Part shown: piece after piece, positions 37,462 to 44,647 of the stretch
Layout of the letters: each line of letters opens with the position of its first letter
How positions within the stretch are numbered: the first letter of the stretch is position 1
NCBI GenBank assembly: GCA_002456995.1
Contig: NTKC01000001.1
Span: forward strand, 104,564-168,563
From: Candidatus Thioglobus sp. MED-G25
GTDB lineage: Bacteria; Pseudomonadota; Gammaproteobacteria; Arenicellales; UBA868
Direction of reading: 5' to 3'
DNA length: 64,000 nt
Translations under genes and position numbers: made by a program
The notes under the pieces: model-generated
What the model was told of the DNA's origin: nothing
The model's database searches: none
Seen by the model: the letters and a program-made list of their open reading frames with translations, nothing else

Positions 37462-37491
37462 TTAAGAAGGGCAGATGATTGCCCTTCTTAA
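37462..37491. terminator. Perfect 12-bp hairpin after the rhodanese gene (possible terminator or mRNA 3' end)
   Basis: TTAAGAAGGGCA-GATGAT-TGCCCTTCTTAA; no long T run follows. Confidence 0.6.
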
Positions 37492-37522
37492 GCACGAGCT
37501 ACGTGTTACTGCCCACTCCAAC

Positions 37523-37720
37523 ATGGATAACGCATACTACGAAACAGTAGACCATCTCGAAAAACTGGGTATTGATCAGGACTATATTCAGGGATGGGTG
37601 GGTGGATACTTACGTAATCCAGAGCGTGAGGAACAACGGGTGACCGACGCTTATAAAGCCGGTTATGAAGATGGGCAGGCTGGCGTTACAGACAAGGCTC
37701 AAGACTGGCAGCGTAGCTGA
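37523..37720 (+). CDS. Small uncharacterised protein (65 aa)
   Basis: MDNAYYETVDHLEKLGIDQDYIQGWVGGYLRNPEREEQRVTDAYKAGYEDGQAGVTDK; start revised because upstream codons of ORF 37475 lie in the hairpin. Confidence 0.55.
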   Translation: MDNAYYETVDHLEKLGIDQDYIQGWVGGYLRNPEREEQRVTDAYKAGYEDGQAGVTDKAQDWQRS

Positions 37721-37753: not shown

Positions 37754-38338
37754 CTACGTTGTTTCGGATGGGCTATCGACTGCAGCCGAAGAGCCCAGGA
37801 TGTTCCTTATCGACTTCTGAACTTGATCAACAGCATTTCGCGCGTCGATCTCCGTGATCTGATCCATGACCCAACGATTGGTCTGATCGTATCCCATGAG
37901 CTGTTGAATTTGTGCGCCGAAAGTCCTTAAGAGGGAATACCCCGGACCATCTTTTCCATACTTACATTGACTAAAGTCTTTGCTGCGGACATTGAACGTG
38001 TCTATAAAGGACTCGGTGTAATCTCCTGGCCCCAATACCTCTTCAGCGTTTCGGTGGAGATGTCCCGCACAAGATTGCGTGAGCTCGATAATAAAATGTT
38101 CCCGATCTCCGGGTTGCAAACGTGTCGAACTGATACGATCACAAATATGAATTAGAAAGACTAAGTATTCACTAATGACTGCGACGCGTTGTGCATCATC
38201 GTGATAATTGAACTCCTGGGCGTGGAGCTGCTTAGTACCATCAAGCGCAACTTGCCAGCAAACATAAGCAAGGGCTCCAGCGTTTTCTTCTATTGAAACT
38301 GAATGCTCACGAGCCGGCCATCGATCGCGTATTCTCAC
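37754..38338 (-). CDS. Uncharacterised protein (194 aa)
   Basis: Long ORF on minus strand with no competing plus-strand gene; co-directional with 67-aa ORF and Cas6-like gene. Confidence 0.6.
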   Translation of the reverse strand: MRIRDRWPAREHSVSIEENAGALAYVCWQVALDGTKQLHAQEFNYHDDAQRVAVISEYLVFLIHICDRISSTRLQPGDREHFIIELTQSCAGHLHRNAEEVLGPGDYTESFIDTFNVRSKDFSQCKYGKDGPGYSLLRTFGAQIQQLMGYDQTNRWVMDQITEIDARNAVDQVQKSIRNILGSSAAVDSPSETT

Positions 38339-38395: not shown

Positions 38396-38599
38396 TTATC
38401 GATGAGATCCCTTTTCCTCATGCGCGAGGTCGACAAGTTGAGTTGCAAGTTCGTCGAACGTTTCGCGATACCCATCTAGAATATCACCACTGTGCGGTAC
38501 AAAATAGTCTTCCTGGGCGACGCCAGATTTGCGTTCTCGGGCAATAAATTGTTTTTGCATGTGAATCATTTTTTGTATGATTTCTTGTTTAGTGCTCAT
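38396..38599 (-). CDS. Small uncharacterised protein (67 aa)
   Basis: MSTKQEIIQKMIHMQKQFIARERKSGVAQEDYFVPHSGDILDGYRETFDELATQLVDLAHEEKG; GGAGAC RBS upstream. Confidence 0.6.
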   Translation of the reverse strand: MSTKQEIIQKMIHMQKQFIARERKSGVAQEDYFVPHSGDILDGYRETFDELATQLVDLAHEEKGSHR

Positions 38600-38688: not shown

Positions 38689-39375
38689 TCACGCAGAGGT
38701 TGAATCGTAAACCGCATCAATGCCACGATGCGGCAAGAATAGCCCACAGCCCAGTTTTCGGCCCTCACCTAGACCGAACTGTTGAATTGATAATGATTCG
38801 CCGGGCTTAAGATCGGCAATCATCAAGCTACGCGTTCGGAGTGTTCTGGTTGGCGTGCAAATGAGACGGGTTTTCCCACAGAGCAGTTTAGTTGGCGTTA
38901 TACCTAGGCTTTTCAGTTGTGTGTTGGCCCACTGTAGGAATTTGGTTTCGTCCTGGATGTCTTCGTTAGCGACAACGTGACGCGCAAATACCGTGTTCAG
39001 TGGGTTTAAAAGCCGCACTCTGGCTGGACCAATCTCGATAATCTGGTCATTCACCACGATGTGATCGCCACACAGTAATTGAGCTGATTCGAGCGTGTCC
39101 TGATGAAGTCTAACCACTAGTCGCGCTCGACCCGAGAGCTGTAAAAACCCATTGTCGTCAGGCCGTATCCAGCCATTGCCAGATTCGGCGATGTGAACAT
39201 GGTGTATGCCCACCCATTTATCGTGATGTATCCATGGTAGTGGACGGGCAAGCGCATCAAACAGCGGGTAGGCATGGTCTACTGGCAGCGACTGGCCGGT
39301 TATTTTGAACACCAGGTCGACAAGGTCAGAGGCATCTAAGCTCGTTTGTTGCGGTGGGGATTCCTGCCAGAACAT
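38689..39375 (-). CDS. Cas6/Cmx6 (type I-MYXAN-like) family protein, orphan
   Basis: DLVDLVFKITGQSLPVDHAYPLFDALARPLPWIH...VGIHHVHIAESGNGW, SGRARLVVRL, LRTRSLMIADLKPGESLSIQQFGLGEGRKLGCGLFLPHRGIDAV (C-terminal Gly-rich loop); recognised from memory of the family. Confidence 0.68.
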   Translation of the reverse strand: MFWQESPPQQTSLDASDLVDLVFKITGQSLPVDHAYPLFDALARPLPWIHHDKWVGIHHVHIAESGNGWIRPDDNGFLQLSGRARLVVRLHQDTLESAQLLCGDHIVVNDQIIEIGPARVRLLNPLNTVFARHVVANEDIQDETKFLQWANTQLKSLGITPTKLLCGKTRLICTPTRTLRTRSLMIADLKPGESLSIQQFGLGEGRKLGCGLFLPHRGIDAVYDSTSA

Positions 39376-39511: not shown

Positions 39512-40387
39512 CTAGGGAATACGGATGTTGTCATGAAAACGACCCCGATAAAACAGTCGCCCACGGCCTCTTTCGGTACTATCTTGAAAAGGCTCACGAC
39601 GATGCGGAGTGTTATTAGACAAGACACCTTCTGATGGCCCGAGTTGCCGGTGAAACACCAGGTCTGTGCGTTGTCTGAGTATCTCGGCAAGCGCCTCTAC
39701 AGCCTCGTGTGACAAAGGGTCCTGGCGCCATTGAATGTTGTGACGTCGAGTCGTGTATCGCATGTAAATGCGGCCAGGATCTTGCCAGAACACGGGTCCG
39801 GACTGGGCCTGTCGCGGTCCGTCGGGTGCTTGACTATTGGCGGGTATGGTCATCACATCTGCCTGGCTTAAGGCAGCGACATAATCAGGATTCGTTTGTG
39901 CCAGCAGCGCGTAGACAATCTCATGGTTGATCAGTTCTGTTGCACCGCCTTCAAGCGCAGGCCGCACACAGTGCAGCAACATCGCTCGGACAGGGTATGT
40001 TTCAGGATAGTAGTAACCGTCGGTGTGCCAGTTCAGTTCAGAATTGGTATAGGGTATGTAACGCGCTTTCGAGCCGGGACTGACTTCAATTTTTGTCAAT
40101 CCCGCAGTAACGACCGATTGGTGCAGATTCTTCAGACCGACTTGATGGCACAATGCAAGTACGGCAGTGTCGTTAACGGCTTGAGCACAGCGGTAGTGTG
40201 CAAAATTAGCCACTGCAACCCGCTCACGCAACTTTGCGAGTTCTTGGTGGTTCAAGGTAGTAGGATCGACAATATCAACGGGTGGCGAAGCTATAACTGC
40301 CCGGTAGTCGTCAAGCCGTTGGGCAAGACAATCGGTAGATACATCGGTTGAAAATAAAGCAGTGCTTTCAGAGAGCTGTGAAACCAT
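39512..40387 (-). CDS. TauD/TfdA-like Fe(II)/2-oxoglutarate dioxygenase
   Basis: LNWHTDGYYY (HxD), LLHCVRPALEGGATELINHEIVYALL, YTTRRHNIQW. Confidence 0.82.
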   Translation of the reverse strand: MVSQLSESTALFSTDVSTDCLAQRLDDYRAVIASPPVDIVDPTTLNHQELAKLRERVAVANFAHYRCAQAVNDTAVLALCHQVGLKNLHQSVVTAGLTKIEVSPGSKARYIPYTNSELNWHTDGYYYPETYPVRAMLLHCVRPALEGGATELINHEIVYALLAQTNPDYVAALSQADVMTIPANSQAPDGPRQAQSGPVFWQDPGRIYMRYTTRRHNIQWRQDPLSHEAVEALAEILRQRTDLVFHRQLGPSEGVLSNNTPHRREPFQDSTERGRGRLFYRGRFHDNIRIP

Positions 40388-40647: not shown

Positions 40648-40663
40648 TATCCCCTATGGGATA
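40648..40663. promoter_or_regulatory. Inverted repeat upstream of dsrA, possible operator
   Basis: TATCCC-CTAT-GGGATA, ~115 bp before dsrA ATG. Confidence 0.35.
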
Positions 40664-40776: not shown

Positions 40777-42054
40777 ATGGCTGACCGCGAACCGCACCCA
40801 ACACCTATGTTGAATGAGCTCGAAACCGGACCTTGGCCGAGTTTCGTGTCGGGCATCAAGCGTCTCCGGGACGATCATCGCCAGGACCGGGTCAATGGTG
40901 TTGCCAACGACTTGCTGGGCCAGTTGGAGCATTCCTATGAAACACGCAAGGGTTACTGGAAAGGCGGTACCGTCAGTGTCTATGGTTATGGGGGTGGGAT
41001 CATCCCTCGTTTTTCTGAGGTTGGTCAGCAGTTTCCGGATTCAAAAGAGTTTCACACGCTCAGGGTACAGCCGCCAGCAGGTAATCATTACAGCACAGAC
41101 ATTCTTCGACAGCTAGCCGACAGTTGGGAGAAGTGGGGTTCGGGTCTGGTGACGTTCCATGGTCAGACCGGCAACATCATGTTTATCGGTGCAACGACTG
41201 ACAACACGCAACACTTTTTTGACGAGATCAATGATTATGGTTTTGATCTGGGTGGGGCGGGGCCTTGTGTACGGACGGCGCAGTCGTGTGTTGGGGCGAG
41301 TCGATGTGAGCAATCGTGTGCGAACGAGCACAAAATTCACCGCACCTTGGTAAACAACTTCACTGATGATGTTCATCGCCCAGCGCTACCCTACAAATTT
41401 AAGTTCAAGATATCGGGTTGTCCAAACGATTGTATGAATGCGATTGAACGAGCCGACATGGCAGTTATTGGCACCTGGCGTGATGACATCAAGGTTGACC
41501 AAGACGAGTGGAAATCCTACGTCGAAACCAAAGGGCGTCAGCACACGATCGATAACATCATTACACGGTGTCCAACCAGTTCTTTGAGTCTTAAAGACGA
41601 CGACTCACTGGAAATAGACAATCGCAACTGTGTGCGCTGTATGCACTGCATCAACGTGGTGCCCAAGGCTCTCTCGCCAGGATCCGACACTGGGGTGACG
41701 GTACTGATGGGCGGTAAACGCACGCTCAAGATCGGTGATTTGATGGGTACCGTGGTGGTGCCCTTCATGAAAGTAGATTCGGAAGAGGATTACGAGCGAC
41801 TGGTAGAGATCGCCGAAAACACCATAGATTATTGGGCTGAAAACGGTCTCGAACATGAGCGTTGTGGGGAAATGATCGAGCGGATCGGTTTGATCAATTT
41901 TCTGGAAGGCATCGGTATTGATGTTGATCCAAATATGGTTGCCGAGCCACGCGAGTCATCTTACGTCCGGATGGACGGCTGGGATGAAGAAGCGATCAGA
42001 TGGTTTGAGCGCAAAGGTGAGCAGAAACGAGTGGAACCAAACGCTGTCGCCTAA
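40777..42054 (+). CDS. dsrA: Reverse-type dissimilatory sulfite reductase alpha subunit
   Basis: FKFKISGCPNDCMNAIERADMAVIGTWRDDIKVD, RNCVRCMHCINVVPKALSPG; dsrB follows. Confidence 0.97.
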   Translation: MADREPHPTPMLNELETGPWPSFVSGIKRLRDDHRQDRVNGVANDLLGQLEHSYETRKGYWKGGTVSVYGYGGGIIPRFSEVGQQFPDSKEFHTLRVQPPAGNHYSTDILRQLADSWEKWGSGLVTFHGQTGNIMFIGATTDNTQHFFDEINDYGFDLGGAGPCVRTAQSCVGASRCEQSCANEHKIHRTLVNNFTDDVHRPALPYKFKFKISGCPNDCMNAIERADMAVIGTWRDDIKVDQDEWKSYVETKGRQHTIDNIITRCPTSSLSLKDDDSLEIDNRNCVRCMHCINVVPKALSPGSDTGVTVLMGGKRTLKIGDLMGTVVVPFMKVDSEEDYERLVEIAENTIDYWAENGLEHERCGEMIERIGLINFLEGIGIDVDPNMVAEPRESSYVRMDGWDEEAIRWFERKGEQKRVEPNAVA

Positions 42055-42087: not shown

Positions 42088-43164
42088 ATGGCTAAAAAAG
42101 AAATGCGACGCCCGATTGAGTCGGGTTGCCCGGATGGTTTCCAGTACATGCATCCAGTCATGGTCAAGAACTTTAGCCAGTGGAAATGGCACGACCACCC
42201 GCGACCTGGAGTACTGCGGCATGTGGCCGAAAGTGGAGACGCCATCTGGACTGTCAGAGCGGGGACCCAGCGCATCCTCGATGTTTTTACCCTGAGAACG
42301 TTATGTGACATAGGCGATGAATTTGCCGACGGTCATGTTCGATTCACGATTCGCAGCAACATCGAGTACATGGTAGACGGGGAAGAAAAGGTCAATCCGT
42401 TAATTGGTGCACTGGAGAACGCAGGTTTCGTGGTGGGCGGTACAGGAAATTCAGTGGCGATGATTGCCCATACCCAGGGCTGGTTGCACTGTGATATTCC
42501 CGGTACTGACGCATCGGGAATCGTGAAGTCGATGATGGATGAATTGATTGATGAGTTCAAAAACTGCAACATGCCCAACCGGGTTCATATCACGACGTCC
42601 TGCTGTCAGATCAATTGCGGTGGTCAAGGCGATATTGCGATCAACGTTCAACACACCAAGCCGCCAAAGATTAACCACGATCTGGTGGCAAATGTTTGTG
42701 AGCGGCCGTCGGTTGTGGCTCGTTGCCCAGTTGCTGCAATTCGACCGGCACAGGTCAATGGTAAGCCAACCCTGGAAGTTGATGAAAAGAAATGCATCTG
42801 TTGTGGTGCTTGCTATCCACCGTGCCCACCCATGCAGATTAACGATCCTGAGCATACAAAACTCGCCATATGGGTGGGTGGGAATCACTCTAATGCGCGC
42901 AGCAAGCCGAGCTTTCAGAAGCTTGTCGCCTCAGGAATCCCAAATAATCCGCCCCGCTGGCCGGAAGCGACGGCCATCGTCAAGAAAATTCTCAATACCT
43001 ACAAGGATGATGCCAGAGATTGGGAGCGAATAAACGACTGGATCGATCGCATTGGCTGGTCACGATTTTTTGAGCTGACTGGTCTAGCTTTTACGAAGTA
43101 TCACATCGATCACTGGCGCGGTTCGCGTAAGAGCCTCAACTCATCTACCCATATTCGGTTTTAG
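42088..43164 (+). CDS. dsrB: Reverse-type dissimilatory sulfite reductase beta subunit
   Basis: HITTSCCQINCGGQGDIAINVQHTKPPKINHD, EKKCICCGACYPPCPPMQI. Confidence 0.97.
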   Translation: MAKKEMRRPIESGCPDGFQYMHPVMVKNFSQWKWHDHPRPGVLRHVAESGDAIWTVRAGTQRILDVFTLRTLCDIGDEFADGHVRFTIRSNIEYMVDGEEKVNPLIGALENAGFVVGGTGNSVAMIAHTQGWLHCDIPGTDASGIVKSMMDELIDEFKNCNMPNRVHITTSCCQINCGGQGDIAINVQHTKPPKINHDLVANVCERPSVVARCPVAAIRPAQVNGKPTLEVDEKKCICCGACYPPCPPMQINDPEHTKLAIWVGGNHSNARSKPSFQKLVASGIPNNPPRWPEATAIVKKILNTYKDDARDWERINDWIDRIGWSRFFELTGLAFTKYHIDHWRGSRKSLNSSTHIRF

Positions 43165-43173
43165 AGAAACGAG

Positions 43174-43566
43174 ATGAAATTCTCGGTTATGGTCAACGAG
43201 GGACCGTACACCCATCAGGCTGCTGATACGGCCTATCACTTTACCCGGGCGGTGCTCGACGCTGGCCACGAGATTTTTCGCATTTTTTTCTACCACGACG
43301 GTGTTCACAATGGTACGCGGTTGACGACCCCACCCCAGGATGACCGCCATATCGTAGATCGGTGGAGTGAACTGGCGCATGATCATGACATCGACCTAGT
43401 GGTGTGTGTCGCCGCCGCCCAGCGTCGTGGCATCCTGGATAAAGAAGAAGCCAAACGCAACGGTAAAGATGGTGACAATATCGCACCGGGATTCAGAATT
43501 TCTGGCCTGGGTCAGCTGATCGAGGCCGGCATTGAAGCAGATCGACTGGTCGTCTTTGGTGATTAA
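43174..43566 (+). CDS. dsrE: DsrE
   Basis: MKFSVMVNEGPYTHQAADTAYHFTRAVLDAGHEIFRIFFYHDGVHN; VVCVAAAQRRG conserved Cys. Confidence 0.95.
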   Translation: MKFSVMVNEGPYTHQAADTAYHFTRAVLDAGHEIFRIFFYHDGVHNGTRLTTPPQDDRHIVDRWSELAHDHDIDLVVCVAAAQRRGILDKEEAKRNGKDGDNIAPGFRISGLGQLIEAGIEADRLVVFGD

Positions 43567-43582
43567 CGAATCAGGTAAGGCT

Positions 43583-43981
43583 GTGAAAAAATTTATGTAC
43601 GTCAATCGCCACGCTCCCCACGGGACTATCTATCCGCTTGAAGGTCTTGAAGTGGTGCTCATTGGTGCCGCTTTCGATCAAGACGTCAGCATGGCGTTTA
43701 TTGGTGACGGCGTGTTCCAACTGAATAAGGGCCAGGACACTGCCGATTCAGGCATGAAGAATGTTGCACTCACCTATGGCGCGTTGGGCGATTATGAAGT
43801 CACCAAGCTGTACGTAGAGCAGGAATCGCTCGACGAAAGAGGCCTAGAATTGAATGATCTGATGAATCTGACTTGGGAAGATGAAGAAGAGAACTGGGCA
43901 GAAAAACCGTCGATCCAGGTGGTCAGCCGAGCACAGTTGTCAGACCTGCTTGAACAGCAGGATGTGATCCTGAATTTCTAA
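43583..43981 (+). CDS. dsrF: DsrF
   Basis: RHAPHGTIYPLEGLEVVLIGAAFDQDVSMAFIGDGVFQL; GTG start at 43583; between dsrE and dsrH. Confidence 0.93.
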   Translation: MKKFMYVNRHAPHGTIYPLEGLEVVLIGAAFDQDVSMAFIGDGVFQLNKGQDTADSGMKNVALTYGALGDYEVTKLYVEQESLDERGLELNDLMNLTWEDEEENWAEKPSIQVVSRAQLSDLLEQQDVILNF

Positions 43982-43989
43982 CATTGACG

Positions 43990-44292
43990 ATGCTGCACAC
44001 GGTCAACAAATCGCCGTTCGACAGTCACAGTCTACAGACCTGTCTGGGACTGGCTAAAGCAGGCAGCGATATTTTGCTGATAGAAGATGCAGTGTATGCG
44101 GCAATGTCCGGTACGGCTGTGACGTCGATGGTCGAATCCGCGATGAGTTCCTCCACCATTTACGCGTTGGAGTCGGATCTCAGGGCACGCGGAATTGGAT
44201 CCGAGAAGATGATCAGCGGAATAAATCTCGTTGGCTACGATGGCTTTGTGGAACTTGCGGTAACCAACGATAAAGTGCAGAGCTGGTTATAG
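43990..44292 (+). CDS. dsrH: DsrH
   Basis: MLHTVNKSPFDSHSLQTCLGLAKAGSDILLIEDAVYAAM. Confidence 0.93.
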   Translation: MLHTVNKSPFDSHSLQTCLGLAKAGSDILLIEDAVYAAMSGTAVTSMVESAMSSSTIYALESDLRARGIGSEKMISGINLVGYDGFVELAVTNDKVQSWL

Positions 44293-44314
44293 ATTATTTA
44301 AAAGGAGATTTGAA

Positions 44315-44647
44315 ATGGCATTTGAAATCAATGGTAAAACCTACGAGACAGACGAGGAAGGCTATCTCGCTAACTTGAGTGACTGGAACACTGACGTTGC
44401 TGGCCGTATGGCAACTGAGGATGACTGCGATCTCAGTGAAAACCACTGGGAAGTCATCAAATTTTTGCGCGATTACTATGAGGAGTATCAGATTGCGCCA
44501 GCAGTGCGGGTACTGACCAAAGCTATTGGAAAACGATTGGGTAAGGATAAAGGCAACAGTAAATATCTCTATGAACTTTTCCCTTATGGCCCGGCCAAGC
44601 AGGCCTGCAAGTATGCAGGTCTGCCCAAGCCAACCGGCTGCGTCTGA
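44315..44647 (+). CDS. dsrC: DsrC sulfur carrier
   Basis: C-terminal arm KQACKYAGLPKPTGCV with two conserved Cys; strong AAGGAG RBS. Confidence 0.97.
   Translation: MAFEINGKTYETDEEGYLANLSDWNTDVAGRMATEDDCDLSENHWEVIKFLRDYYEEYQIAPAVRVLTKAIGKRLGKDKGNSKYLYELFPYGPAKQACKYAGLPKPTGCV

Follow-up and report, generated by a model that had tools for sequence, protein, structure and literature searches.

Genes and features of the locus

The gene analysed here lies within a window of 64 kb, the whole stretch of DNA that was studied. Its reading frame is open from 39375 to 38689 on the minus strand, starts with ATG and encodes a protein of 228 aa. It sits between sox-like genes at 33-36 kb and a dsr operon starting with dsrA at 40777, as the original prediction had stated. 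The following features were mapped around it:

37475..37720, plus strand: Alvin_2107-family "globule sulfur oxidation protein" (NF049856, 99 bits; cut-off 60)
37754..38338, minus strand: c9, 194 aa, recurrent in the cluster, no Pfam/NCBIfam match
38396..38599, minus strand: c13, 67 aa (family alignment; no Pfam match above cut-off)
38689..39375, minus strand: Cas6-family (PF09559/TIGR02807) protein, 228 aa, dsr-linked clade (profiles, model and tree)
39512..40387, minus strand: TauD/gamma-butyrobetaine-hydroxylase-like 2OG-Fe(II) dioxygenase (c1), 291 aa (PF02668, E=1.3e-18)
40648..40663, no strand assigned: inverted repeat TATCCC-N4-GGGATA, upstream of dsrA in the 389 bp that separate it from the divergent TauD-like gene
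40777..42054, plus strand: dsrA, dissimilatory sulfite reductase alpha (TIGR02064, 619.6 bits), divergent from the cas6 cluster
42088..43164, plus strand: dsrB (profile match)
43174..44647, plus strand: dsrE, dsrF, dsrH and dsrC of an oxidative-type dsr operon (profiles; DsrC also PF04358)

The row in the window reads TauD-like gene, Cas6, c13 and c9. The TauD-like gene is located upstream of cas6 and in line with it, 389 bp away from dsrA, and it adjoins dsrA in most related loci. c13 directly follows cas6 in the window and is found elsewhere after a DsrC paralogue, c9 was also present in four extra families of a 399-genome sample described below, and the Alvin_2107 family was recurrent near the cluster in related loci. 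No cas3, cas5, cas7, cas8 or adaptation gene was found beside the window cas6, its neighbours being the TauD-like gene, c13, c9 and dsr. A perfect 12-bp inverted repeat (TTAAGAAGGGCA/TGCCCTTCTTAA, 6-nt loop) was observed at positions 37462-37491 of the window, between a rhodanese-like gene and the Alvin_2107-family gene.

The window protein is a member of the Cas6/Cmx6 family

The original prediction recognised a Cas6/Cmx6 protein from the motifs GIHHVH, SGRARLVVRL and GLGEGRKLGCGLF, all of which were found in the minus-strand frame from 39375 to 38689. The profile and structure searches it had proposed agreed with this assignment. The protein exceeded the curated cut-offs for TIGR02807 (126.2 bits; cut-off 98.85) and PF09559 (200.3 bits; cut-off 26.7), was matched by six PADLOC Cas6 profiles and matched the Cas6 chain of the type I-B CAST complex (PDB 8fcj) with E=3e-18. 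An AlphaFold model built from six sequences was of moderate confidence (pLDDT 71.6, pTM 0.70), with a poorly modelled glycine-rich loop. Foldseek comparison of this model with the PDB returned 14 matches with E<=0.001, every one of them a Cas6. Foldseek and alignment indicated a Cas6 double-ferredoxin (RAMP) fold carrying the glycine-rich loop GLGEGRKLGCGLF. The window protein is a true Cas6/Cmx6 family member.

In CRISPR systems, crRNA is matured by Cas6. The host genome (1.6 Mb, 86% complete) contains exactly one copy of the Cas6-family protein, and searches of this genome returned no match for Cas1, no match for Cas7/DevR and, for cas3_core, helicase-like matches only, all under the cut-off. 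No CRISPR-type direct repeats were detected within the 64-kb window, in agreement with the lack of CRISPR noted in the original prediction.

Type I-B (formerly I-MYXAN) Cas6/Cmx6 proteins, such as that of Synechocystis sp. PCC 6714 (NZ_CP007544) and the CAST Cas6 in 8fcj, have the Pfam/NCBIfam family, the fold and the glycine-rich loop in common with the window protein. Identity between CRISPR Cas6/Cmx6 proteins and the window protein was 26-33%, and the plasmid members shared D33-H34 and R89. The only relatives linked to CRISPR came from cyanobacterial plasmids, where all except the Gloeobacter gene directly adjoin a cas3 gene, whereas the window gene is part of a dsr cluster. The Gloeobacter morelensis gene, on plasmid pGMOR1 (NZ_CP063846), has no annotated cas neighbours within ~4 kb, and a PAPS-reductase-family gene and a cupin gene are located just downstream; it is perhaps another non-CRISPR Cas6.

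Cas6 and dsrA occur in the same genomes

The first sample comprised 369 genomes from the same class as the host of the window; dsrA was searched with TIGR02064, and matches with E<1e-30 were counted as true dsrA. PF09559 was found in 118 of the 369 genomes, among them some of 1.0-1.6 Mb. Almost all carriers had a single copy, and they spanned 58 family labels (hand count). dsrA was found in 119. Both genes were present in 111 genomes, Cas6 only in 7, dsrA only in 8 and neither in 243 (Fisher p=7e-75, kinship ignored). The exceptions were soft. In all seven Cas6-only genomes (L102-L106, L068 and L093), cas6 was still flanked by genes of the cluster, and one of these genomes showed a fragment of dsrA where the contig ends. 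In the dsrA-only genome G123 the TauD-like gene and c10, a small protein of the cluster described below, adjoin dsrA at the end of a contig. Presence of cas1 showed no association with Cas6 (50/118 Cas6-positive versus 85/251 Cas6-negative genomes, p=0.13); it was missing from 68 of the 118 carriers, including near-complete genomes of 1.0-1.1 Mb, and no Cas1 match was detected within 20 kb of cas6 among the contigs listed.

The second sample, 399 genomes from the phylum, contained PF09559 in five, the genome of the window among them. The four other loci carried four family labels and were all directly divergent from dsrA, with a DsrC paralogue ending in KGGY as the next gene in three. The first named relatives belonged to Thiomargarita, Parabeggiatoa, Thioploca and Sedimenticola, all genera of sulfur oxidisers.

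Cas6 belongs to a conserved cluster divergent from the dsr operon

Gene-order maps of the related loci were made with profiles. Where cas6 and dsrA were found on the same contig, they were separated by 0.66-4.5 kb in 82 of 84 pairs, and all 82 were divergent. In the few genomes where cas6 was distant from dsrA (G109, G325), both genes were kept. The dsr side of the conserved order reads dsrC-H-F-E-B-A, pointing away from the cas6 cluster, and the opposite strand carries a TauD-like 2OG oxygenase, c10 (~63 aa), an optional c14 (~235 aa), Cas6, a DsrC paralogue lacking cysteines and c13. Among loci with a long enough contig, the TauD-like gene was found in 71/104, c10 in 87/110, c14 in 41/110, the DsrC paralogue in 85/116 and c13 in 52/113. 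Flanking genes outside the cluster varied while the order of these partners stayed conserved.

The DsrC-family paralogue, the commonest gene directly after cas6, has a C-terminus reading KGGY and no C-terminal cysteines. In the literature, Cys-less DsrC paralogues go by the name RspA. None was found near the window cas6; the sole other DsrC-family match in the host genome is a fragment at the edge of contig C7, possibly a DsrC paralogue. c10 was absent next to the window cas6 and had no match in the host genome. Elsewhere it was detected in 33/39 Cas6-positive genomes, 1/8 dsr-positive genomes without detected Cas6 and 0/33 other genomes, thus tracking Cas6 among dsr-positive genomes (Fisher p=2e-4), and genomes in which it is separated from cas6 (G109, G032) retain it as well. 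Pfam and NCBIfam name only the TauD-like, DsrC-like, YbiX-like oxygenase (c6) and Alvin_2107 families among the cluster members. Comparison with solved structures gave no convincing relative for c10, c14 or c13; the c10 model is small and helical, with moderate confidence.

Up to three 2OG-Fe(II) oxygenase-like families recur around the cluster, c1 and c6 identified by Pfam and c16 by eye, and this recurrence hints at oxygen-linked regulation. Several genomes (e.g. loci L160-L164) also contain a second dsrAB located away from the cas6 cluster, mostly without adjoining dsrEFH.

Conservation results thus revised two points of the original prediction. The gene had been described as an orphan, and it is instead a member of a conserved dsr-flanking cluster. 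Its association with a sulfur-oxidation island holds across genomes as far as dsr is concerned, as the proposed comparison of neighbourhoods showed; of the two pathways, dsr and sox, the tie was demonstrated with dsr only.

Residue conservation and phylogeny separate dsr-linked from CRISPR-linked proteins

Residue conservation was compared between 124 dsr-linked sequences and seven CRISPR members. G201, G203, G209, G211, R83, R89, H34, W3 and N67-G68-W69 were invariant or nearly so in the dsr-linked set, in which the glycines of the glycine-rich loop were conserved at 97-100%. The four glycines and R89 were likewise invariant or nearly so in the CRISPR members, R132 was common to both groups, and D33-H34 was shared by the dsr-linked proteins and 7/7 CRISPR members. 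In contrast, W3, W69 (within the NGW motif), E143, K163 and G167 characterised the dsr-linked clade and were not shared with the CRISPR members. The position corresponding to LH(D/E), which follows helix 1, was occupied by a histidine in 5/7 CRISPR members versus 12/124 dsr-linked proteins; the window protein, with HH50-51, is one of these 12. H58 of GIHHVH was considered as a conserved general base. It is present in 94% of the main clade, and the proposal was rejected because several sub-lineages have lost this residue and the CRISPR members differ at the position.

In a tree including the seven CRISPR-annotated sequences for comparison, the dsr-linked proteins grouped as a single clade at the end of a long branch (ultrafast bootstrap 100%), and the sampled CRISPR relatives fell outside it. 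This topology fits a single domestication, which probably happened once, judging from the sequences compared. The clade is a Cas6 lineage outside CRISPR, tied to one metabolic pathway.

Candidate RNA targets and elements near dsrA

The gap between dsrA and dsrB often contains a strong hairpin of variable sequence and conserved shape (e.g. L059, L125 and L132; mean z -2.2 over 40 loci). A stricter count found it in 35/71 adjacent loci, 0/8 second dsr copies and 0/5 loci from genomes without detected Cas6. As a universal Cas6 target this hairpin was rejected: it occurs in 35/71 loci only and is absent from the window and from several lineages, reduced genomes among them, in which the gene is retained. 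For some lineages the hairpin is a lead, and it is possibly a stability or processing element. It was the one hairpin examined as a candidate for the processing of dsr/sox mRNA suggested in the original prediction.

Most of 82 related loci carry the inverted repeat TATCCC-N4-GGGATA ahead of dsrA, and in many of them CACCCCAT-N-GGTAGGGT and CCTAGACTT follow. Some second dsrA copies are preceded by the repeat as well, and its mismatches are of both the wobble and the C.A kinds. These two properties led us to discard it as an RNA target and suggest a DNA operator instead; the repeat is probably an operator or promoter element of a dsr regulator. Neither nine loci nor the window region gave an Rfam match. 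No general RNA target was found among the dsrA-dsrB hairpin, the upstream inverted repeat and the Rfam families.

Discussion

Collectively, the data presented indicate that the Cas6-family protein was almost certainly domesticated from CRISPR as an accessory of the dsr locus. The protein is independent of CRISPR and shows strict linkage to dsr. Recruitment from immunity is probable because the gene is a near-constant neighbour of dsr, with or without CRISPR, and the same conserved tie greatly strengthens the original proposal of a repurposed protein or a misleading CRISPR annotation.

In the reading that best explains the data, a CRISPR-derived Cas6-fold protein was taken over as an accessory of the dsr sulfur-oxidation locus and has been kept there within a small gene cluster transcribed divergently from dsrAB. 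It would still bind structured RNA via its glycine-rich loop and basic residues and, with c10 (63 aa), the Cys-less DsrC paralogue, c13 (67 aa) and the TauD-like oxygenase as partners, would adjust dsr expression after transcription, for example through the stability or processing of dsr-region transcripts. RNA binding is suggested by the conservation of the glycine-rich loop and basic residues, and post-transcriptional control of dsr by the position of the gene and the regulatory-type DsrC paralogue. Approximately 90% of the dsr-linked members lack the CRISPR-type histidine, which argues that binding may matter more than cutting. DsrC paralogues of the Cys-less type are generally regarded as regulatory proteins, and Allochromatium controls its dsr genes partly at a post-transcriptional level. 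We consider the chances of RNA-level regulation of dsr by the Cas6-family protein to be evenly balanced. The fuller proposal falls slightly below that: a stand-alone Cas6-derived RNA-binding regulator may be a core accessory of dissimilatory sulfur oxidation in Gammaproteobacteria (GTDB sense) and may form, together with the Cys-less DsrC paralogue and c10, a hitherto unrecognised module that controls dsr post-transcriptionally.

The main rival is a role at the protein level. The Cas6 fold could serve purely as a scaffold for Dsr proteins and, together with c10, the Cys-less DsrC paralogue and c13, help to assemble, chaperone or regulate the proteins of the DsrAB/DsrEFH/DsrC sulfur relay, RNA binding being lost or irrelevant. 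The partners are of the sulfur-relay type (the DsrC paralogue) or small proteins, the histidine of the CRISPR relatives is mostly lost from the dsr-linked proteins, and the clade-specific invariant W3 and NGW motif could be interaction surfaces. However, conservation of the RAMP glycine-rich loop and of R89, a basic residue, remains at 97-100%, which fits a retained RNA contact, and we regard this explanation as unlikely, though worth serious attention.

An action on tRNA or another general RNA in sulfur-dependent modification appears improbable. DsrEFH and DsrC are homologous to TusBCD and TusE of the tRNA 2-thiouridine pathway, the Cas6 fold binds RNA, and a TusE/DsrC paralogue is the commonest downstream neighbour of cas6 (85/116). 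Yet this paralogue, with its KGGY terminus, has none of the C-terminal cysteines that sulfur transfer requires, and the cas6 gene is missing from genomes without dsr although tRNA thiolation is general.

dsr clusters move horizontally, and co-transfer of a gene that rides the island with no role in sulfur oxidation would also yield co-occurrence. We consider such hitch-hiking very improbable, given that a single copy is kept across the 58 family labels and in highly reduced genomes, that both genes are retained where cas6 has become separated from dsrA (G109, G325), and that partner order is conserved while the other flanking genes vary. An ordinary Cas6 that acts in trans for CRISPR arrays at other sites of the genome, as name, family and the cas1 found somewhere in 50/118 genomes might suggest, is barely credible and largely refuted by the 68/118 genomes without cas1 (near-complete genomes of 1.0-1.1 Mb included), a presence that tracks dsr rather than cas1, the lack of Cas1 or Cas7/DevR matches in the host genome and the lack of Cas1 matches within 20 kb of cas6 among the contigs listed.

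Domestication as a dsr accessory is the reading we retain. Both the fold and the family are known, and the dsr setting is new as far as the open-access literature goes: no paper connecting Cas6/Cmx6 with dsr was found in PMC. We know of no Cas6-like gene in the standard dsr set dsrABEFHCMKLJOPNRS. In the oxidative dsr locus of sulfur-oxidising Proteobacteria (Allochromatium-type dsrABEFHC...), cas6 is a steady divergent neighbour of that operon.

These findings bear on annotation as well as on biology. "CRISPR-associated" labels on dsr-linked genes mislead in genome annotation, and the gene serves well as a marker of an oxidative dsr locus. The dsr pathway, which is central to the sulfur cycle, would gain an unstudied accessory module. 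A Cas6 clade fixed in a central energy pathway, across lineages and reduced genomes that lack cas1, would clearly exemplify a passage from immunity to metabolism.
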